A program made the translations under genes and the position numbers. From NCBI GenBank assembly GCA_024401165.1, contig JAKSLN010000002.1, positions 1-62,803 on the forward strand: a DNA stretch of 62,803 bases, written 5' to 3'. Source of the DNA: Bacteroidaceae bacterium. Lineage in GTDB: Bacteria; Bacteroidota; Bacteroidia; Bacteroidales; Bacteroidaceae. This document shows, in pieces, positions 9,185 to 60,850 of this stretch. The notes beneath the pieces are model-generated. The model was not told the DNA's origin and ran no database searches. It saw only the letters and a program-made list of their open reading frames with translations. Within the stretch, counting starts at the first letter, position 1. Every line of letters starts with the position of its first letter.

Positions 9185-10354
9185 TTATTTGGACATGTAC
9201 TTTCTACCGTTCACTACAACAATCCCCTTATATGAAGGGTTTACAATCTGACCATTCAGATTATACATCCTGCCCTCTGCGGGATTCTTGCGAACGTCCT
9301 TAATCAAGGTTTCCTGATCATTGGACCATAGCATCTGTTCCTTGGCAAGCGACATTCCACCAGAAACAGCCAGGTAAGCTCGATTTGCCGTATTGTAGTC
9401 GAAAGCAGCACCACTTGCCGCGCCCCACCAGAAGCCAAGCTCAGATCCGTTATGCATGGTGAGTCGATAGAACTTGCACCCAGCATCGCTTGAGGACATT
9501 TCAGATGACGTGATGCCAGAACCCGTAGGACGAAGACAATTGTTCACACCATCAGGATGATTCCCCGATTCAGAAGAGAGGGAAATGACATAATCACCAC
9601 CAGCAGAGGCGGTTATCAAAACTCCTGTATTAGCAGGAACTACATCACCAGTAGCATAATCGACAACATGCAGTTTGCCATCTACAACCTCTACTTCGCT
9701 TACAGTCAGATTGGCAGGAACTCTCCAGGAATGTGCGTTGCTGTAGGTTCCAAAATAATGATTCCCATTTGTGCAGGCAGAGGAAACAGAAATAGTCTCG
9801 CTTGAATAGAAATCTGCCCCCGTAAACTTGATTGATTTATTCGTAGACGACGAAGTGTTAGTCACATTAAAGACAATCTTATAGTAAGAGTTTGCTGGCC
9901 ATGCTGTTAGAGGAGATGTGGGTTCGAAAACGAGAGTTCCATTCGTATTATAGGAGAGCGAAGGTTGCTCTATCGTGACATCTGGTGTCGAGGAGAAAGT
10001 GCTAGTCGAGGAGACAAACAACTTCACAGAATTCACCTTTATAGGAGTTTGTTCTTCGCTATATCCATTGTGATGAATTACAATACGTTCAATGGGAACA
10101 GGGAAGGCAGTCTTTCCAAGAAAAACCCTGTCAATGCCAGAGAGACTTTTGCCTCCAACACGCCAATAAGTGTCGGAGTTCATGGTGGCATCAATAGACC
10201 AACTCATACCTTCTACTGTAACAGAGTGAGTTTCGAACCCCGAATAATTCAGATTTGAAACTTTTAAAGTATAATAAGGAGTCCTATCTTGCGCCCAGGT
10301 GTTTATGCAAAGAGAGAAGAAAAGAAAACAAAGAAGGAATGATTTGCTTTTCAT
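9185..10354 (-). CDS. Secreted protein with type IX-like C-terminal sorting tail
   Basis: A 389-residue protein with an N-terminal signal peptide (SFLLCFLFFSLCINTWAQ). The body is rich in Ser, Thr and Asn, and I do not recognise a catalytic family. It may be beta-sandwich modules. The C-terminus (RMYNLNGQIVNPSYKGIVVV followed by NGRKYMSK) matches the short sorting domain used by the type IX secretion system in Prevotella, so the protein is probably surface-attached or released. It has its own strong promoter and heads a small group with the 60-residue peptide gene and crcB. Confidence 0.7.
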   Translation of the reverse strand: MKSKSFLLCFLFFSLCINTWAQDRTPYYTLKVSNLNYSGFETHSVTVEGMSWSIDATMNSDTYWRVGGKSLSGIDRVFLGKTAFPVPIERIVIHHNGYSEEQTPIKVNSVKLFVSSTSTFSSTPDVTIEQPSLSYNTNGTLVFEPTSPLTAWPANSYYKIVFNVTNTSSSTNKSIKFTGADFYSSETISVSSACTNGNHYFGTYSNAHSWRVPANLTVSEVEVVDGKLHVVDYATGDVVPANTGVLITASAGGDYVISLSSESGNHPDGVNNCLRPTGSGITSSEMSSSDAGCKFYRLTMHNGSELGFWWGAASGAAFDYNTANRAYLAVSGGMSLAKEQMLWSNDQETLIKDVRKNPAEGRMYNLNGQIVNPSYKGIVVVNGRKYMSK

Positions 10355-48812: not shown

Positions 48813-49988
48813 ATGAAAATTGTTAAATCTATTTTGGCAACTGCCTTGTTAGCAATGGGTCTCAATGCTAACGCACAGGCAACCTACACTGAGGGTCAGA
48901 CCGAGTACACTTTCAAGCCCCACATGTTCCTGCAGCTGCAGGCTGGCGGCGCCTACACCTTGGGTGAGGCTAAGTTCACCGATCTTCTTTCTCCTACTGC
49001 TCAGATTGCTCTGGGTTATCAGTTCAGCCCCGTTTGGGCACTGCGTCTTGCTGCTGCTGGCTGGGAGAGCAAAGGCGGTTGGGGTGAGAACAGCGCAAAG
49101 CAGTATGGCTTCGCTGACAACACTTACAAGTGGAAGTACGTTGCTCCTTCATTGGACGTTAAGTTCAACATCATCAACGCAATCGCAGGCTGGAACCCCA
49201 AGCGCGTATTTGGTCTGAACTTGATCGCAGGTGTTGGCGCTAACATCGCTTTCGACCACGACGGTATTGCTTCTTTCTATCAGAAGAATCCTTTGCTGCT
49301 CTCTCACTACCCCGCAGTTGAGGGCACCAGCATCCGCCCCGTTGGTAAGTTCGGTATGGATCTGGACTTCAACGTTTCTAAGCGCGTAAGCATCAACGTT
49401 GAGGGTAACGCAAACCTGATCTCTGACCAGTACAACAGCAAGCACACCGACAACGCAGACTGGTACTTCAACGCACTGGCTGGTGTTAAGGTTGCTCTGG
49501 GCAAGACCTATGAGGAGAAGAACATCGCTCCCGTATATCAGACTGTTGTTGATACCGTATGGTACGACGAGACTGCTTACAAGGAGATCGAGGAGGATGG
49601 CAACATGAGCTGGACCGTATTCTACGAGATCCGCGAGTCTGACTTCACCGACCCCAACGCTCAGCTGACTGCTATCGGTAAGTTCCTCGCAGAGCACAAG
49701 GGTTGCAAGGTAACCGTTAAGTCTTATGCTGACCGTGGCACTGGTAATCCCAAGATCAACATGGGTTACTCACAGCAGCGTAGCGAGAAGGCTGTTGCTG
49801 CTCTGAAGCAGGCAGGTGTAAGCGAGTCAGTTATGACTGCTGAGTACTTCGGTGACACCGTTCAGCCCTTCGAGGAGAACGACAAGAATCGTTGCACCAT
49901 CATCACCGCAACTGGTTTGAAGCCCGGCAAGAAGCCCTACACTGTTAAGAAGTTCCGCACTAGCGAGCGTCAGGTTCGCGTGAACTAA
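48813..49988 (+). CDS. OmpA-family major outer-membrane protein
   Basis: A 391-residue protein with a signal peptide (AMGLNANAQA). Residues about 25-235 form an eight-stranded beta-barrel, with alternating strands such as KPHMFLQLQAGGAYTLG and FGLNLIAGVGANIAFD. The C-terminal ~120 residues are an OmpA-like peptidoglycan-binding domain (AIGKFLAEHKGCKVTVKSYA, GYSQQRSEKAVAALKQAGV). Codon use is extremely biased, as expected of an abundant envelope protein. It probably anchors the outer membrane to peptidoglycan. It is monocistronic, with a strong promoter and terminator. Confidence 0.9.
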   Translation: MKIVKSILATALLAMGLNANAQATYTEGQTEYTFKPHMFLQLQAGGAYTLGEAKFTDLLSPTAQIALGYQFSPVWALRLAAAGWESKGGWGENSAKQYGFADNTYKWKYVAPSLDVKFNIINAIAGWNPKRVFGLNLIAGVGANIAFDHDGIASFYQKNPLLLSHYPAVEGTSIRPVGKFGMDLDFNVSKRVSINVEGNANLISDQYNSKHTDNADWYFNALAGVKVALGKTYEEKNIAPVYQTVVDTVWYDETAYKEIEEDGNMSWTVFYEIRESDFTDPNAQLTAIGKFLAEHKGCKVTVKSYADRGTGNPKINMGYSQQRSEKAVAALKQAGVSESVMTAEYFGDTVQPFEENDKNRCTIITATGLKPGKKPYTVKKFRTSERQVRVN

Positions 49989-52648: not shown

Positions 52649-54880
52649 ATGAAATTTATTAGTAGTTTAAAGTTTGCAGGGCTCCTTCTTTTGGCTGCTC
52701 CTGTAGTGATTTCATCATGTAAGGATTACGATGATGACATCAATGAAGTTCGTATTAACAACCTGAACAAGTTGGCTGAACTCCAGGCAAAACTTGACGA
52801 ACTGGCTGGCAAGATCCAGAACGCAAAGGATGGCAAGGATGGTCAGACTCCTTACATCGGCACCAACGGCAACTGGTGGATCGGTACTACCGACACTGGC
52901 GTAAAGGCTGCAGGTAAGGACGGTATTAACGGCCAGGACGGCAAGGACGGTATTAACGGCCAGGACGGTAAGGACGGTATTAACGGCCAGGACGGTAAGG
53001 ACGGCGTTGACGGCAAGGATGGTCAGGACGGTAAGGATGGCCAGGACGGTAAGGACGGCAAGGACGGCGATAAGGTCGAAATTGGCGCTAACGGCAACTG
53101 GTTCATCAACGGCGTTGACACTGGCATTCCTGCTCAGGGCCAGAACGGCAAGGATGGCGTAAATGGCACCAACGGTAAGGATGGTGTTAACGGCACCAAC
53201 GGCAAGGATGGCCAGGACGGCAAGGATGGTAAGGACGGTAAGGACGGTAAGGACGGCGTTGACGGCAAGGATGGCCAGAACGGTCTCTCTGCATACGAGA
53301 TCGCTCAGAAGTACGGCTTCACCGGTACCGAGGAAGAGTGGTTGGCTTCACTCAAGGGCGCTAAGGGCGACAACGGTGCTGGCAGCGGTGACGCTATCAA
53401 GGAGATCGACTGCTACGGTAACGACGAGTTCGATCACCTTTGGATCAAGTTCGTAGGCGATCCCCACATCTACAAGACTTCAGACATCACCGGTGCTGAG
53501 CACGAGGCTTACAACAACGCAGTTAAGGTTGTTTACGAGATCACCAAGGCATTCGGATATCCCAACCAGATCCTGACCGATACCGAGCTCACTGAGTTTG
53601 GCGCAAAGGTTGCTAAGGCTATCGACGACATCGAGAAGGCTCTCAAGTACATCGACGCTCTGAAGGCACGTGCTACCAGCATCTCTATCGACGGTATCAA
53701 CAACAATATGTTCGGTATGCTGAAGACCAGCACTGGTATCAACACCAACATGCTGTTCGGCTTCTATGGTGAGATTACCAAGAAGACCCAGTTCCCCACT
53801 ACCAACGCTGCATTCTATGGTGACGCTTCAGTTCTCTTGGATAACACCTATGTAACTCTGAACACCGAGACCTTCATGCCCGATAACATCTACACCGAGG
53901 AGATGGGTACTATCTACTACTCTATCAACCCCGCTCAGATTGACTTCTCCGGCATCGACATCAACCTCGTTAACTCACAGAGCGCAACCACCGGCATTGA
54001 GCTGGCTCCTGTTGCTGCTTCTACCGAGGTTCTGCAGATGGGTCACACTCTGCCTATCACTCGTGCTGCTAACGGTTTCTACGAGTCAGTTGCTAAGGTT
54101 AAGGAATATGGTAGTGTACAGAAGATCAACCTCGACGCTCAAGAGATTTTGGATGGTCTGAAGAGCCTGAAGAACAAAGAGGACGGTATGAACTTCGTCA
54201 TCTCAACGCTCCAGAACACCATGGATGCATTCAAGACTGAGGCATACGCACTGAACATCGAGACTAGCGATGACCTTTCTACTGCAGATGGCAACAAGCA
54301 CATCATTAAGTCTGCACTTGATATCCAGGCAGCTCTCGTTCAGCCTGTTGGTTATGAGATTTGCGCTAAAATTCCTGCAAGTGTTCCCGGCTACGACAAG
54401 GCCGTTAGCCTGATTGAGGATGCACACCTGTCAGCAAGCGCAGAGAACAATGTTAAGAAGTTGCTCGACAAAGTGTATGACAAGATTGATCGCATTTATG
54501 ACAACATTCAGGCTCGCTTCGAGCTCGCTTTGATTGCTCAGGAAGGCAACACCTATCAGTTCCTTCGTCGTACCCAGTCTGTTCCCAGCTCAGTTGGTTC
54601 AAGCTTCACCGTTTACATGACCAACATGAACGCTGAGATGCTGGTTCCCGCATACAAGAAGCACTTGTGTGTAACCAATGCTTGGGGTGCTGCTGACGAG
54701 ACTGCCAAGAAGGCAGCTATCGACGCTGTTAACGCAGGCATCAACAAGGTATATGATGGCAACCAGAAGACTGCTACCATCAGCGGTCTGAAGAGTGGCA
54801 TCACTTATGAGATCTCTTACTCAGGTCTTGACTTTGCTGGTAAGCAGATGACTCGTAAGTTCTATGTAAAGTGCAAGTAA
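52649..54880 (+). CDS. Surface lipoprotein with collagen-like Gly-repeat region
   Basis: A 743-residue protein with a lipobox (VISSCKDYDDD). The acidic residues right after Cys match the lipoprotein export signal of Bacteroidetes, so surface exposure is likely. Residues about 60-215 are collagen-like Gly-x-y units dominated by GKDG/GQDG/GINGQDG, broken by two small NGNWWIGTTDTG- and NGNWFINGVDTG-type modules. The motif GFTGTEEEWLASLKG ends the repeat. The remaining ~480 residues are a non-repeated domain that I do not recognise. Codon bias is strong, suggesting abundant expression. It precedes the dockerin gene by ~166 bp with a hairpin between. Adhesion or stalk function is inferred. Confidence 0.85.
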   Translation: MKFISSLKFAGLLLLAAPVVISSCKDYDDDINEVRINNLNKLAELQAKLDELAGKIQNAKDGKDGQTPYIGTNGNWWIGTTDTGVKAAGKDGINGQDGKDGINGQDGKDGINGQDGKDGVDGKDGQDGKDGQDGKDGKDGDKVEIGANGNWFINGVDTGIPAQGQNGKDGVNGTNGKDGVNGTNGKDGQDGKDGKDGKDGKDGVDGKDGQNGLSAYEIAQKYGFTGTEEEWLASLKGAKGDNGAGSGDAIKEIDCYGNDEFDHLWIKFVGDPHIYKTSDITGAEHEAYNNAVKVVYEITKAFGYPNQILTDTELTEFGAKVAKAIDDIEKALKYIDALKARATSISIDGINNNMFGMLKTSTGINTNMLFGFYGEITKKTQFPTTNAAFYGDASVLLDNTYVTLNTETFMPDNIYTEEMGTIYYSINPAQIDFSGIDINLVNSQSATTGIELAPVAASTEVLQMGHTLPITRAANGFYESVAKVKEYGSVQKINLDAQEILDGLKSLKNKEDGMNFVISTLQNTMDAFKTEAYALNIETSDDLSTADGNKHIIKSALDIQAALVQPVGYEICAKIPASVPGYDKAVSLIEDAHLSASAENNVKKLLDKVYDKIDRIYDNIQARFELALIAQEGNTYQFLRRTQSVPSSVGSSFTVYMTNMNAEMLVPAYKKHLCVTNAWGAADETAKKAAIDAVNAGINKVYDGNQKTATISGLKSGITYEISYSGLDFAGKQMTRKFYVKCK
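52917..53290 (+). repeat. Collagen-like coding repeats
   Basis: Three nearly identical 27-bp units coding GINGQDGKD begin at 52922, 52949 and 52976, followed by 9- and 21-bp variations of GKDG, GQDG and GTNGKDGVN. The near-identity at DNA level allows slippage or recombination, so repeat number may vary between strains. Confidence 0.85.
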
Positions 54881-54940: not shown

Positions 54941-54966
54941 CCCGGATGCTAGTAGTAGCATCCGGG
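54941..54966 (+). other. Strong hairpin between the lipoprotein and dockerin genes
   Basis: A perfect 11-bp stem (54941-54951 with 54956-54966) and a 4-base loop, without a T-run. It may be an intrinsic terminator of weak type or an mRNA 3'-end stabiliser. No TAnnTTTG box was found between it and the dockerin gene. Confidence 0.6.
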
Positions 54967-55046: not shown

Positions 55047-56291
55047 ATGAAAAAAACAATCGTAATGGTAATGGCTGCTATGCTTTCGGGTATGGCAGCC
55101 TTTGCTCAAAAGACACTTGACGAAGGTTTCTACCGCGTTCAGAACAATGGCTCTGGAAGATACCTTTATGTAAGAGACTGTACGGGTGACGTGTCTACTT
55201 TGGGCGCAGATATGGGAGCTATTGAGCTATGGAATGGTTTAGAAAACGCTATTAGCGATCCTGGTTCTATCATCTATTTGGAAAAGCATGGTGGAGCCTA
55301 CGACCTTACTTCTCAGGGAACCGGTGTGTACCAGATCATGGGCATGTACATGAGTATCTTTTATGATGGAAAATTCTGCCAAGTATACGCATCTGGACAG
55401 TATCTTTATGAAACGGGAGATGATGATTTTGACCCCGAAAAAGGAATTATCGGAGCTGTGTCTAATATGCCAGGTAGGTCACAATATAAACTGTGGAAAA
55501 CGCCTCTCGTTGACAGCAATACCGACAACTATTTTGGCTTTACCCCCACAGTGTCTGCAGCAGGCAAGAACTACGCTCCGTTCTATGCAGACTTTGCTTA
55601 CACGCCAAAGAATGACGTTAAAACATGGTATGTAAGCAAAATAGACAAGGAGAACGCAGTTGCAATTGTCAAAGAAATCAAAGGGACCGTCGCCAGAAGC
55701 CAGGCAGTATTCATTGAATGCCCTTCTACCACCCCAGACGGGAATAAGATTGACTTGACCACAGCAGCAGGAGCAGCAGCATCAGGAAACCTGATGAAAG
55801 GCACGTACTTCGCAAACGGTGAGCGTAACTACAAAGACCATACCGGCATGAGTCCAGCATTTGTTGCTTTCGACAAAACAACGATGCGTGTTCTCAGCAC
55901 AAATGCAGCAGGAAAGCTCGCATTTGTAGACGATGAAAAGGCCTTAGTAGATGTTTACGCTAAAGTAAACAACAAGTGGCAGAACGTAAAGAGTATCCCA
56001 CACAACCAGTCTTACCTTGTTGTTGACTCTGACTGCCCTACCTCACTTGTTGTGATGACAGAAGCAGAATACGCCGCAGCCTTTGGTGGTGGTGGTTCTG
56101 GCGAAGAGAAAAAAGGTGATGTAAATGGCGATGGTAAGACAACTATTACTGACGCTACTTGCATTGTCAACTTTATCACGGGTGCAAACACTGCTGGTCT
56201 AGACAAGGAAGCTGCCGATGTAAACGGTGATGGAAAGATCACAATCACGGATGCCACTTTAATTATAAAGAAGATTATTAATAACAATTAA
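55047..56291 (+). CDS. Secreted protein with C-terminal dockerin type I domain
   Basis: About 414 residues from the ATG at 55047 (MKKTIVMVMAAMLSGMAAFA, signal peptide). The body (about 25-335) begins LDEGFYRVQNNGSGRYLYVR, reminiscent of a trefoil-like or ricin-type binding module, and is otherwise unrecognised. After a GGGGSGEEKK linker come two dockerin loops, DVNGDGKTTITD and DVNGDGKITITD, each followed by an F-helix (ATCIVNFITG, ATLIIKKII). Both carry all Ca2+-ligand positions of dockerin EF-hand loops. Dockerins plug into cohesins. The next gene, overlapping by one base, encodes a cohesin-like domain, so the two proteins probably bind each other. Confidence 0.85.
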   Translation: MKKTIVMVMAAMLSGMAAFAQKTLDEGFYRVQNNGSGRYLYVRDCTGDVSTLGADMGAIELWNGLENAISDPGSIIYLEKHGGAYDLTSQGTGVYQIMGMYMSIFYDGKFCQVYASGQYLYETGDDDFDPEKGIIGAVSNMPGRSQYKLWKTPLVDSNTDNYFGFTPTVSAAGKNYAPFYADFAYTPKNDVKTWYVSKIDKENAVAIVKEIKGTVARSQAVFIECPSTTPDGNKIDLTTAAGAAASGNLMKGTYFANGERNYKDHTGMSPAFVAFDKTTMRVLSTNAAGKLAFVDDEKALVDVYAKVNNKWQNVKSIPHNQSYLVVDSDCPTSLVVMTEAEYAAAFGGGGSGEEKKGDVNGDGKTTITDATCIVNFITGANTAGLDKEAADVNGDGKITITDATLIIKKIINNN

Positions 56292-59200
56292 TGTCGAAAA
56301 TGAAATCTATACATAAGGTATTATTCCTATTATTCGGTATTATGCTCTTTAGCACCATAAATGCTAAGGCAGACAACACGCTGACTATTGGAAACATAGA
56401 GGCAAAAGCAGGCGAAACCATTACCCTGCCCGTCAATATGACCAATTCTGAAGATATCATTGCCTTTCAGTTCTCTATCGCTCTGCCTGATGGAGTAACC
56501 ATCAAGAAAGAGATGAACGAGGATGATGAGCTCGAGTACTGCGTTAGTCTGACAGGACGTGCAAAAAGCAAACACAACATCTCTTGTGGCGATCCCGTAA
56601 ACGGTGTTTACACCATTGCATCTTTCTCGTCAACCAACCAGATATACCGAGAGAACGATGGAGCAATCTGTGAGATCAAACTGGCAGTTTCGTCCGACAT
56701 CAAAGGTGGAAAGTACGAGATCAAGCTCCAGAACATCGAGATGACGAACGCAGATAACGAGCCTATCAACCCAGCAGACTTCAAGGCAACCTTCACGGTT
56801 CCCTCTGATGTGACAGAAATTGGCAAAGCAAACATTGCCTCAAATATCGTTGTAGGTGCTCCCTACTCTGAATTAGGCAAAGACATCCCTGCTGCAGGCG
56901 GTAAGGACCGTGCTGCCAGCAAGGTCACCTATAGTGTCTTTACACGTACGTTTCTGAGCGACGGCACATACACCGATGGTGCTGCAACGAACGCTGATGC
57001 TGTCATCTATGGTGAATACACATCAGAGTTAGCAAGTCTTGGTGCAGCAGAGAAGGAGCGTACGAAGGTTGCCACAAGCACCCCAAGTGGCAAGCTGAGC
57101 GATGCCAATGGAACCACATTGAAGAGTGAAGGCACTGACTTCTCTAAACTCACGGACTGTAATGTTACCGCAACTGAAGGACTTGACATTTATCAGGAAG
57201 CTAATGAAAAAAGCGCCGGAGAAGTGTCACTGACAGTAAGCAAAGAAGTAGTCAACCTTAAGAGCCAAGGTGAGACATTCAACCTTGATGGACTAGCAAC
57301 AGCTAAGCAATCAATCAGTTATACCAGTGGAGCAACAGAAGAAGCAAAGGTTGTTCTCGGATACTCGGTAAAGACGGCAAAGGATGGTTTCTCTTTGGAC
57401 GGAAACAACGTAACTGTTACCAAGAACGAGACAGATGATGCACGCAATGGGTTTGTCATTACCGTAACAGCAACAGGTGAAGGTGGCAAGGTTGCGACAA
57501 AGGATGTCACTTTCAACCAGGTTCTTACGGAACTTGGCAAGGCAAACATTGCTACTGAGATTGTCATTGGCGAGGCTTATGCAGAATCAGGAAAGGACAT
57601 TCCTGCCGCTGGCGGTAAGGACCGTGCTGTAGCAAAGGTTACCTATAAATACGTTACCCGTACCTTCATGGAAAACGGCACGTATACCGACAGCGAACCT
57701 TCTGCACAATTGGAGGACCTAATCTATGGTGACTATACCGCAGAGCAACCCAACCTCGGCACAGAAGTAAAAGAAAGGACTTTGGTTGCTTCAAGCGCAC
57801 CTAAGGGTATGCTGAAGGACAAGGATGGCGTTGAATTGAAGGCTGATGCCACAGACTTCAGCGCACTTGTAAACTACGAGGCAACTGCAGATAAGGCTCT
57901 TGACATCTATCAAGAGGCCAACGAGAAAAATGCTGGTGAGGTTTCTTTGACGGTTAACAAGCAAGCAGTCAACCTTAAGAGCGAGGGTGAGACTTTCGAC
58001 CTCGACGGATTTGCAACTGCTAAGCAATCAATCAATTACACAAGCGGAGCAACAGAAGATGCAAAAGTATCTATTGCATACAGTGTTAAGACAGAACAAG
58101 ATGGTTTCTCTTTGGACGGAAACAACGTAATTGTAACAAAGAACGAGACTGCAGACTCACGCAATGGTTTCGTCATCACCGTAACCGCAACCGGTGAAGA
58201 CGGCAAAGTTGCCACAAAGGATATCACCTTTAACCAGGGTCTTACCGAAATTGGCACGGCTAACATTGCTATTGATGTTGTCGTCGCTGAAGCATACACC
58301 GAATCAGGTAAGGACATTCCCGCCGCCGGTGGCAAGGATCGTGCAGTAGCAAAGGTTACTTACAAGTACATCACCCGTACCTTCATGGACAATGGTACCT
58401 ATACAGACAGTGAACCTTCTGCACAACTGGATGCTTTGATCTATGGCGACTACACCGCACAGCAGCCCAGTCTCGGCACGGAAGAGAAAGAGAGAACTCT
58501 GGTTGCTTCAAGCACACCTAAGGGTACGCTGAAGGACAAGGATGGCGTAGAACTGAAGAAGGAAACAACCGACTTCAACGCACTTGTAAACTACGAGGCA
58601 ACTGCAGATAAGGCTCTTGACATCTACCAGGAAGCCAATGCAATCAAAGACTACTCAGAGGTTACTCTCTATCTGAGTGAGGCGTTTGTAAACCTCGATC
58701 CTATCGGTGAGACAAAGGACTTAGCACGCTATGTTAATGCTAATCAGACACTCACCTACACCAGTGGTGCTACGAAGGCCGGTCAGATTGGCATCACCTA
58801 CAAGGTAAAGACTGCCATGGATGGCTTCACGCTTTCAGGTAGCAACGTGACGGCAACCAAGAACGAAACCGCAATCGAGCGTTCTGGTTTTGTTGTAACA
58901 GTTACCGCTACAGGTGAGGGTGGCAAGTCTGCATCTTCAGACATCACTTTCAGTCAGTCAGATACAAAGCTTGGCGAGGCATTGATTGCCTTCGACATCA
59001 ACGTTTCTGCACCCTACTCTGAGTTGGGCAAGGACATCCCTGCTTCGGGTGGCAAGGATCGTGCTATCGCAAAGGTAACCTACAAGTATACGAAGCGTAC
59101 CTTCAAGACAGACGGTTCATATACAGATGGCGATGTTTATTCAAACGAAGTGCTCATCTATGGCGACTACACCGAGAATATTCCAAGTCTTGGTACAGAA

Positions 59201-59809
59201 GTAACAGAGAGAAAGAAAGTTGCAATAAGCATGCCCTACTCTAACCTGGCCGATGGTAGTGGAACACTGCTCCGTAAGGAAACCACAAACTTCAAAGAGC
59301 TTAGCGAAGTCTTCGTTGTAGCAGACAAACTTGAGATCTATCAGGAAGCAAACATCGTCACCGGCTATTCCGATGTTGACTTGAAGGTCAAGAGTGAAAC
59401 CATCGAGGTTGGTTGCGACGGCGAAACCATCAGTCTGGCAGATGCAGCAACCGCAAGCCAGAAGCTCACCTTCACCAGCGGTTCTACGAAGGAGAACGAA
59501 GTTGAGGTATCTTACTCTGTTAAGACCCAGAAGGATGGCTTCAAACTTGAGGGAAACATGGTTATCGTTGATGCTAACGAGGCCAATGTTGCAAGAGAAG
59601 GCTTCGTTGTAACAGCAACCGCTGCTGGCGAGGGCAATAAGACCGCAACCAAGGATATCACCTTCAATCAGGCACTTAACACCGCCATTGCCGCCGTTAT
59701 GCAGAACGCTAACGAAAAGGTTTACGATCTCAATGGTCGCCGCATCCAGGCAACAAAGTCGCAGAAGGGTATCTTTATCAAGAACAATCGCAAATACATC
59801 ATTAAGTAA
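56291..59809 (+). CDS. Cohesin-like surface protein with four large tandem repeats and sorting tail
   Basis: An 1172-residue protein. After the signal peptide (FSTINAKA), residues about 28-172 look like a cohesin fold: LTIGNIEAKAGETITLPVNM, IIAFQFSIALPDGVTI, GAICEIKLAVSS. Four repeats of 238-240 residues follow, beginning at 175, 413, 652 and 892. Each carries GKDIPA(A/S)GGKDRA, a TRTF/KRTF strand, IYGxYT, IYQEAN and a BACON-like half ending in (T/S)xDxTFxQ. The C-terminus (KVYDLNGRRIQAT, ending NNRKYIIK) resembles type IX sorting signals, so attachment at the surface is expected. The ATG overlaps the dockerin-gene stop (TAATG). The role as a receptor for the dockerin protein is inference. 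Confidence 0.85.
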   Translation: MSKMKSIHKVLFLLFGIMLFSTINAKADNTLTIGNIEAKAGETITLPVNMTNSEDIIAFQFSIALPDGVTIKKEMNEDDELEYCVSLTGRAKSKHNISCGDPVNGVYTIASFSSTNQIYRENDGAICEIKLAVSSDIKGGKYEIKLQNIEMTNADNEPINPADFKATFTVPSDVTEIGKANIASNIVVGAPYSELGKDIPAAGGKDRAASKVTYSVFTRTFLSDGTYTDGAATNADAVIYGEYTSELASLGAAEKERTKVATSTPSGKLSDANGTTLKSEGTDFSKLTDCNVTATEGLDIYQEANEKSAGEVSLTVSKEVVNLKSQGETFNLDGLATAKQSISYTSGATEEAKVVLGYSVKTAKDGFSLDGNNVTVTKNETDDARNGFVITVTATGEGGKVATKDVTFNQVLTELGKANIATEIVIGEAYAESGKDIPAAGGKDRAVAKVTYKYVTRTFMENGTYTDSEPSAQLEDLIYGDYTAEQPNLGTEVKERTLVASSAPKGMLKDKDGVELKADATDFSALVNYEATADKALDIYQEANEKNAGEVSLTVNKQAVNLKSEGETFDLDGFATAKQSINYTSGATEDAKVSIAYSVKTEQDGFSLDGNNVIVTKNETADSRNGFVITVTATGEDGKVATKDITFNQGLTEIGTANIAIDVVVAEAYTESGKDIPAAGGKDRAVAKVTYKYITRTFMDNGTYTDSEPSAQLDALIYGDYTAQQPSLGTEEKERTLVASSTPKGTLKDKDGVELKKETTDFNALVNYEATADKALDIYQEANAIKDYSEVTLYLSEAFVNLDPIGETKDLARYVNANQTLTYTSGATKAGQIGITYKVKTAMDGFTLSGSNVTATKNETAIERSGFVVTVTATGEGGKSASSDITFSQSDTKLGEALIAFDINVSAPYSELGKDIPASGGKDRAIAKVTYKYTKRTFKTDGSYTDGDVYSNEVLIYGDYTENIPSLGTEVTERKKVAISMPYSNLADGSGTLLRKETTNFKELSEVFVVADKLEIYQEANIVTGYSDVDLKVKSETIEVGCDGETISLADAATASQKLTFTSGSTKENEVEVSYSVKTQKDGFKLEGNMVIVDANEANVAREGFVVTATAAGEGNKTATKDITFNQALNTAIAAVMQNANEKVYDLNGRRIQATKSQKGIFIKNNRKYIIK
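56813..59676 (+). repeat. Four ~717-bp coding repeats
   Basis: Units start at about 56813, 57527, 58244 and 58964. Units 2 and 3 are closest in sequence. The fourth is the most diverged in its second half. Confidence 0.8.
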
Positions 59810-60850
59810 ATGAAAAAACTCCTCTATCTCCTGGCGTTCGCGCCTATTTCCGCTTTTTCACAAAGCACCATATTTAATAATGTAGAAAACTCCCAGGCGT
59901 TCCAACACATGGAGATAGGGGGAGTTTTAGGAACTACCGGCCTTAGCATTGACGTGGCCTTTCCGCTCAACAAGAATCTGAAGCTCAGAGCTGGCTTCTC
60001 AACGACACCAACCATATCCTTTGTCGATTCCTATTCGATGACGGCAGTTGGAGGTGATCAACTGTCCGAAGGAAGCGAACCTCTTGAGACAAAGACGGAA
60101 AGACTCTCAAAGTATCTAGGCGAACTGATTCACAATGAGGATGTTGACAACATTGTAGACATGGACCACAAATACCACAACTACAATGCAAAGCTCCTGA
60201 TTGACTGGTATCCGTTCAAAAAGAAGAATTGGCATTTCACCGGTGGTTTTTACGCGGGTTCTAAGAAGATAGGAAACGTTTGCAACACCATCCAAGAGTC
60301 TCCCACTACCCTGGCCATGCTCATGTACAACGACATGTACGACCAGATTCAGGGACTGGATGAATGGGAGTATCCCACGTTCAGCCTTGGCAGCTACAGT
60401 TTCTCCGTTGACCCATTCACAGGAATGCAACTCAAGGAACGATTCAACTACTACGGACGTGTCGCCGTTCAATTAGGGTCTTTCGACGATGGCAATGCTT
60501 TCTTCATCGACCCCGATGCCAACGGACTTCTCAAGGCTGAGGCATACGTCAATGCATTCAAACCCTATGTGGGATTTGGCTACAACACCCGCATTGGCAA
60601 GGATCATCGCTGGAACATTGGTTTCGACGCAGGCTTGATGTTCTGGGGAACTCCACACGTCTACTGCGACGGATACAAGTTCAAAGCAGATGAAACCGAA
60701 TATGCCGACCGTATAGAGCGCCAGGAAAGGGTTTGTCTAATCCACGATGTCCAAAAAGTGCGCGGCATTGTAGGAGACTACATGAACATTGTCAAGCATC
60801 TGCCTTTCCTTCCCGTCATCGAGGCAAAACTCGCCTACACCATCTTCTAA
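59810..60850 (+). CDS. Outer-membrane beta-barrel protein of the cohesin-dockerin operon
   Basis: A 346-residue protein with a signal peptide (LLYLLAFAPISAFSQ). Alternating amphipathic strands (MEIGGVLGTTGLSIDVAFPL, KNLKLRAGFS, NWHFTGGFYAGSK, WNIGFDAGLMFWG) and a C-terminal aromatic (AKLAYTIF) indicate a beta-barrel outer-membrane protein. Its ATG directly follows the stop of the cohesin gene (TAAATG), so translation is coupled. It may anchor or help export the partner proteins, but no family was recognised. The operon ends with a strong terminator. Confidence 0.75.
   Translation: MKKLLYLLAFAPISAFSQSTIFNNVENSQAFQHMEIGGVLGTTGLSIDVAFPLNKNLKLRAGFSTTPTISFVDSYSMTAVGGDQLSEGSEPLETKTERLSKYLGELIHNEDVDNIVDMDHKYHNYNAKLLIDWYPFKKKNWHFTGGFYAGSKKIGNVCNTIQESPTTLAMLMYNDMYDQIQGLDEWEYPTFSLGSYSFSVDPFTGMQLKERFNYYGRVAVQLGSFDDGNAFFIDPDANGLLKAEAYVNAFKPYVGFGYNTRIGKDHRWNIGFDAGLMFWGTPHVYCDGYKFKADETEYADRIERQERVCLIHDVQKVRGIVGDYMNIVKHLPFLPVIEAKLAYTIF

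Follow-up and report, generated by a model that had tools for sequence, protein, structure and literature searches.

A dockerin in the place of a type IX-like tail, with a cohesin gene directly behind it: a candidate surface adaptor pair in a Bacteroidaceae bacterium

What does a dockerin do at the end of a protein whose relatives carry a type IX secretion (T9SS)-like tail there, when a cohesin gene lies directly behind it? The question is raised by three genes in the window (the whole analysed stretch, 62,803 bases of contig JAKSLN010000002.1 from a Bacteroidaceae bacterium). They lie on the plus strand and encode P0001 (55047-56291), P0002 (56291-59809) and P0003 (59810-60850), proteins of 414, 1172 and 346 residues. 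We found that a single base, 56291, belongs both to the P0001 stop codon and to the P0002 ATG, and that the P0003 start abuts the P0002 stop with zero gap, so the coordinates and the cistron coupling given by the original prediction were right. Its label 'Prevotella' lacks firm support; among named organisms, Candidatus Minthosoma equi was the closest relative found. The source genome, from an uncultured gut bacterium, is a MAG of 2.54 Mb in 153 contigs (80.7% complete), and the P0001-P0002-P0003 trio is known from this one incomplete MAG and one strain.

Upstream of the three genes and their cluster, the window carries the glycoside hydrolases GH97, GH43 with a GH5-like part, and GH3 (19529-44994). 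A 389-residue protein encoded at 9185-10354 has a short CTD-like C-terminal tail and matches no Pfam family at E 1e-5. The promoter pattern known for Bacteroidota matched the window six times, none of them upstream of P0001. By eye, a perfect 10-base inverted repeat lies at 54941-54966, between the lipoprotein gene described below and P0001; it has no T-run and was not called a terminator.

An older cluster around P0001 and P0003

Homologues of P0001 and P0003 neighbour each other in many genomes of the genus, among the matches listed. We read their surroundings in two overlapping sets whose counts are not additive. The genus set holds 60 regions hand-picked among the listed P0001 and P0003 matches, in which 55 P0001 homologues were read (one of 56 P0001-like ORFs was dropped as overlapping); it leaves out at least four listed P0001 matches (G042, G050, G093 and G119). 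The named set holds 80 loci from GTDB genomes, with 79 P0001 homologues read.

Directly upstream of the P0001 homologue and on the same strand, the genus set has an OmpA-family gene in 49/55 and a long lipoprotein gene in 50/55 cases; a barrel gene lies downstream on the same strand in 40/55, and all four genes share one strand in 37/55. The named set agrees upstream (OmpA-family gene 72/79, long lipoprotein 70/79), and there a barrel gene is next on the same strand in 14/79, with all four genes in 11/79. In 26 more of the named loci the closest barrel gene is on the opposite strand, at most 600 bases away, and in 39 no barrel gene was found at that distance, some loci being cut short.

In the window, the gene at 52649-54880 (plus strand) encodes a collagen-like surface lipoprotein with a match of 43-54% (BLASTP) to the cluster lipoprotein of Candidatus Minthosoma equi. 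It scores 55.9 bits against PF01391 (collagen), its counterpart is likewise collagen-like, and its N-terminus has, by eye, a lipobox-like SSC. The suspicion that this upstream lipoprotein belongs to the same block thus proved right, the gene being orthologous to the one that opens the older cluster. The OmpA gene is missing from its usual place. The sole match to the cluster OmpA in the source genome, an OmpA-family gene at 48813-49988 (plus strand, PF00691), is 38% identical to the OmpA of Candidatus Minthosoma equi (L133), against 52% between the OmpA proteins of L133 and L134, and is probably a paralogue.

The last gene of the older cluster is P0003, predicted to be a small outer-membrane barrel. 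Its structure model (mean pLDDT 87.9, from an alignment of 44 sequences) has CarO, OprF and OmpW as top structural matches, all of them 8-stranded barrels, and this backs the beta-barrel identity first proposed. No Pfam family was found for P0003 at E up to 1, and the CarO equivalog NF038067 scored below its cut-off. Since the barrel family predates the cohesin gene, P0003 offers no evidence for the cohesin-specific anchor or export partner that it had been taken for. It shares with the type B CTD systems the placing of a surface protein gene beside an outer-membrane barrel gene, and differs from the PorP/SprF-like barrels of those systems, as described in the accessible parts of PMC9143113 and PMC12618676, in its best structural matches and in having no Pfam match. 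A role as a PorP/SprF partner barrel, though conceivable, is not supported.

By sequence comparison, P0001, P0003 and the collagen-like lipoprotein are members of an older cluster of lipoprotein, OmpA-like, P0001-like and barrel genes, and only P0002 and the dockerin are new in this lineage. A conserved P0001-P0002-P0003 trio was not found in relatives: the synteny check, which the original prediction had itself named as a possible refutation, found a cohesin ORF in none of the 80 named loci, and a single one of the 60 genus regions (L092) has cohesins, about 6 kb from the P0003 homologue and with no P0001 homologue. The self-contained trio of the original prediction therefore does not hold as a conserved unit.

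Two proteins, one dockerin, one cohesin and one tail

P0001 consists of a signal peptide, a predicted beta-trefoil domain (residues 22-160; 55110-55526), a second beta domain, a Gly-rich linker and a C-terminal dockerin, and has no CTD. The predicted structure shows the beta-trefoil fold of ricin-type lectins, and the ricin-type profile PF14200 reached 13.1 bits, below its cut-off of 25.6. No enzyme domain was found in Pfam or NCBIfam scans of P0001, and its N-terminal region had no credible match among PDB sequences. P0001 may have lectin activity.

The dockerin (56112-56276; residues 356-410) is of type I and has two complete loops, each reading D-x-N-x-D-G-x5-D by eye. It scores 55.7 bits against PF00404 (cut-off 22.9) in the Pfam scan, with E 8.7e-16 in the genome search, in full agreement with the complete two-loop dockerin first described; its closest PDB sequence match is 6kg9 (E 3e-8). 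The source genome has two PF00404 matches, of which this is the only full dockerin and the other only a half, and two PF00963 cohesin matches. The P0001 dockerin reaches to four residues before the C-terminus, the position at which its homologues carry their CTD, and P0001 has no such tail.

CTD-like tails, called by our own rule plus reading by eye, are present on 70 of the 79 P0001 homologues in the named set (66 by rule, 4 by eye); of the remainder, six are cut by a contig end, two are masked at the end and one has no visible tail. No dockerin was found on any of the 79, eight of whose ends are not fully visible. In the genus set, 49 of 55 have a tail (48 by rule), two are cut, one is masked, one is without, and two have dockerin repeats. 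The two closest relatives of P0001, 59-61% identical to it, keep the CTD-like tail, and in the nearest relatives the tail starts about where P0001 turns into the Gly-rich linker and dockerin, so the replacement falls at a domain boundary. In this lineage the dockerin seems to have taken the place of the CTD-like tail on P0001, with a cohesin-plus-CTD gene directly behind it.

The two with dockerin repeats, L093 (G075:C10, 5402-6799) and L101 (G053:C52, 4587-5981), are P0001-type proteins outside the usual cluster that have these repeats at the end and no CTD. They are a second sign that a P0001-type protein can exchange its tail for dockerins.

P0002 comprises a signal peptide, one cohesin, four tandem repeats and a short CTD. 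The cohesin-like start was borne out by profile search: the domain (56378-56773) scores 39.4 bits against PF00963 in the genome search (E 1.0e-9) and 41.5 bits in isolation (E 1.9e-10; cut-off 24.1), and PF00963 was not among the matches of a full-length P0002 hmmscan. Its closest PDB sequence match is the cellulosome-anchoring protein 3ul4_A, at only E 0.0069. The four 239-residue repeats (56813-59677) are likewise present as originally described; the copies begin at 56813, 57527, 58244 and 58964 with a spacing of 238-240 residues, and copies 2-4 are 69, 58 and 53% identical to copy 1. They are perhaps Ig-like, PF13004 (BACON) giving 22.3 bits (below the cut-off of 25), and may serve as a spacer or stalk. 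The repeat unit was matched in the source genome alone, with no match in the other 398 of 399 family genomes searched; in a genus search with whole P0002, among the matches listed, alignments run mainly over the cohesin.

The short T9SS-like C-terminal signal of P0002 lies at 59705-59806. T9SS cargo of Prevotella intermedia carries short C-terminal signals of 40-55 residues, with a Tyr/Gly/basic motif followed by GxY or GxN and then Ile, according to the accessible part of PMC11969387. Of the motifs examined (B, D and E), motif B of P0002 fits this pattern and motif D is GxF, not GxY or GxN; with that exception the type IX-like tail of the original prediction fits. TIGR04183 and the other NCBIfam CTD models gave no match on P0002. 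The tails of the nearest P0001 homologues also fit the short-CTD pattern; among the named homologues, some carry tails that are longer or of another kind.

The genome has a full-length gene for the SprA translocon (contig C46; TIGR04189, 2645.7 bits), and SprA was matched in 127 other genomes of the genus (139 searched). TIGR04183 has eight matches elsewhere in the source genome, seven of them over the cut-off; among six proteins scanned it gave one weak match, on L213 (12 bits; cut-off 23). Genome G099, with a stated completeness of 100%, combines a short CTD-like tail with the absence of an SprA match; hence, the link between tail and SprA is not absolute.

The second cohesin gene of the source genome, on contig C123, encodes a 235-residue protein made up of signal peptide, cohesin and tail. 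The signal peptide and cohesin of P0002 are 70% identical to it, and the DNAs match at the cohesin and at the tail (30 tail bases, 86.7% match). Because of the N-terminal identity and the tail match, P0002 looks like a paralogue of this small adaptor-type gene, expanded by the four repeats. That the tail of P0001 itself had been relocated to P0002 was rejected, since the P0002 tail resembles that of the C123 gene. Hence, the function would have moved and the sequence did not. In the cohesin tree, the window cohesin is placed firmly only with this second cohesin of its own genome, and a comparison with viral contigs gave 600 pattern matches with no relative among them.

Dockerins and cohesins across the genus

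Of 139 genus genomes, 126 have dockerins and 63 have Pfam cohesins; in six places the cohesin matches counted are partial ones that lie within SprA genes (for G082, the sole listed match). The genus pattern was drawn from 20 loci selected for their cohesins, 40 selected for high-scoring dockerins and the window, using profiles grown from the window domains. The 40 were hand-picked among the matches listed, about one per genome, with already fetched cohesin loci left out. A direct dockerin-cohesin gene pair is present in 16 of the 20 cohesin-selected loci, a frequency biased upward because these were chosen for holding cohesins, and in 2 of the 40 dockerin-selected loci, a frequency biased downward by the exclusion of fetched cohesin loci.

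With the window included, a dockerin gene is followed directly by a cohesin gene in 24 cases; the cohesin protein has no dockerin in 17 and a CTD by rule in 14. Cohesin proteins without a dockerin end in a CTD in 15 of 18 cases (window included). Complete dockerin proteins end in the dockerin in 55 of 69 cases (window included), and 9 of the other 14 have a CTD by rule; since a CTD cannot fit behind a dockerin that counts as terminal (at most 45 residues from the end), the 55/69 is descriptive and not a test. Besides the window, a CTD-less dockerin gene lies directly before a cohesin-plus-CTD gene in 11 loci (L216-L219, L221-L223, L229, L231, L248 and L256).

In those 11 loci and in L214 (180-base gap), a protein ending in cohesin-dockerin precedes a cohesin-like protein of about 400 residues with a short CTD. 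With a cohesin immediately ahead of its dockerin, the first protein is reminiscent of the X-dockerin dyads of clostridia. The Pfam cohesin model gave no match on the three downstream proteins scanned; their cohesin-like domain was detected by profile iteration, with a profile-profile match probability of 99.2.

A close analogue of the window pair is L213 (2787-6655 of G014:C96) of an uncultured relative, where a 543-residue dockerin-ended protein is followed, after a 2-base gap, by a secreted protein of 744 residues that carries four cohesins, so that the pair resembles a small scaffoldin system. Outside the source genome, the window cohesin has its top BLAST scores with three of these cohesins, barely over L214 (35-40% identity). 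Across 17 pairs, dockerin and cohesin divergence correlate (r 0.61, 0/5000 permutations), a value confounded by relatedness and from which the window pair departs: the nearest dockerins to the window dockerin have downstream cohesins far from that of P0002.

In a small sample of six dockerin proteins scanned with Pfam, the accompanying domains were Ig-like, LRR or CotH where there were any, and none was a recognised cellulase. A peptidase carrying a dockerin was seen in L092. About a dozen proteins of 1231-1358 residues have dockerin ends of a second sequence class (L233-L236, L240, L242, L244, L245, L249, L251, L259 and L266), with no cohesin found near them in the fetched regions; L234, the only one scanned, has a CotH domain.

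A candidate adaptor and its ligand

Our preferred reading, to which we give a probability of about 0.68, is that P0002 acts as an adaptor sorted to the surface by the T9SS, with the neighbouring P0001 as the ligand that it carries or captures there. This reading is supported because dockerin and cohesin score over their Pfam cut-offs on overlapping neighbour genes. It is weakened because many dockerins of the genus have no visible partner (dockerins in 126 genomes, Pfam cohesins in 63; a direct pair in the downward-biased 2 of 40), because the nearest relatives of the window dockerin and cohesin are unmatched, and because the cohesin tree places the window cohesin firmly only with the second copy of its own genome. 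The original idea that a sorted cohesin protein displays the dockerin protein is strengthened, P0001 being without the tail that 70/79 homologues carry and P0002 having one; the notion of a conserved three-gene unit falls away.

Known cohesin-dockerin pairs bind in a calcium-dependent manner. We infer the cohesin-dockerin binding, the function of the CTD and the export route of both proteins as follows. In relatives, the P0001-type protein would presumably be exported and attached by the T9SS through its own CTD-like tail. In this lineage a dockerin has replaced that tail, and between P0001 and the barrel gene lies what looks like a duplicate of the small signal-cohesin-CTD gene, extended by the four repeats. 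P0002 would be exported and anchored by the T9SS through its CTD, its cohesin would bind the P0001 dockerin in a calcium-dependent manner, and the lectin-like P0001 would be held at the surface on the repeat stalk. The pair could form before export (a split substrate) or after; either way the dockerin would take the role of the lost tail. The stricter version, in which P0001, without an outer-membrane export signal of its own, crosses while bound by dockerin-cohesin contact to the CTD-bearing P0002, is a tentative proposal that we hold to be possible rather than likely.

Three other explanations were weighed. P0001 might reach the medium or surface otherwise, its dockerin mainly serving another cohesin such as the C123 adaptor, with P0002 a general receptor and the pair not dedicated. 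The two cohesins of the genome, about 70% identical, may share specificity, and the window dockerin and cohesin have no matched nearest relatives; however, P0002 lies directly behind P0001 with a shared base, and no other cohesin gene was found in the cluster, and we regard this explanation as unlikely.

We give still less credit to the view that the dockerin binds no partner and is a terminal module stabilised by calcium, which may be the case for many dockerins of Bacteroidota, and that the cohesin fold of P0002 binds something else. The excess of dockerins over cohesins in the genus fits such a module, as does L007 (1-1866), a large protein without CTD that ends in a dockerin-like stretch (by eye) and then a Pfam cohesin. 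Against it, dockerin-then-cohesin gene pairs recur in other genomes, and in this cluster the two domains occur together only here. Finally, an assembly or binning error that put a foreign cohesin gene into the cluster is very improbable: the MAG is in 153 contigs and has no second copy of the trio, but cluster members flank P0002 on both sides, start and stop codons interlock, the parts of P0002 have GC values (0.444-0.476) close to those of the N-terminal part of P0001 (0.453; the P0001 dockerin itself 0.39) and of P0003 (0.476), and the nearest paralogue is in the same genome.

A cellulosome was rejected for the window pair, P0002 having one cohesin match and the dockerin protein P0001 no enzyme. 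The nearer likeness of the adaptor reading is to single-cohesin surface anchoring proteins of cellulosomes (among them the protein of the 3ul4 cohesin), which like P0002 combine one cohesin with a surface-attachment signal; OlpA and ScaE are analogues of this kind. Such proteins attach by SLH or sortase, whereas here the signal is a Gram-negative T9SS-type CTD, the proposed ligand is lectin-like and not a recognised enzyme, and the genes are directly adjacent. With the short-CTD cargo of P. intermedia, as far as the accessible text of PMC11969387 describes it, P0002 shares the signal peptide and a putative short C-terminal signal with a Tyr/Gly/basic motif B; it differs by GxF in motif D and by the N-terminal cohesin, and here the signal would reside on a different polypeptide from the cargo.

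Dockerins and some cohesins have been reported in rumen Bacteroidota (accessible parts of PMC7480376 and PMC6071333); PMC6071333 describes six bins with tandem cohesins and elsewhere lists one of these bins (#136) as Bacteroidetes. Those parts treat the Bacteroidota dockerins as possible cellulosome components of unsettled role, and describe neither a dockerin gene beside a cohesin gene nor a link to a T9SS signal. A study of T9SS cellulases reports, in its accessible part, that neither cohesins nor dockerins were found in the genome it examined (PMC5831590). In the open-licence literature searched, we found no report linking cohesin-dockerin pairs to T9SS signals.

The locus offers a before-and-after case: the same cluster protein has its own sorting tail in relatives, and here a dockerin and a neighbour with cohesin and tail. 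This suggests what the dockerins of gut Bacteroidota, so far unexplained, may do: together with a cohesin they would replace a T9SS signal in a non-covalent and removable way. It also points to compact dockerin-cohesin pairs for surface display in Bacteroidota. If the pair does cross as a split substrate, the cohesin-CTD proteins of the genus would be general adaptors that give dockerin-tagged proteins access to the T9SS, and the Bacteroidota dockerins considered here would be exchangeable tags for secretion and display, not cellulosome parts.
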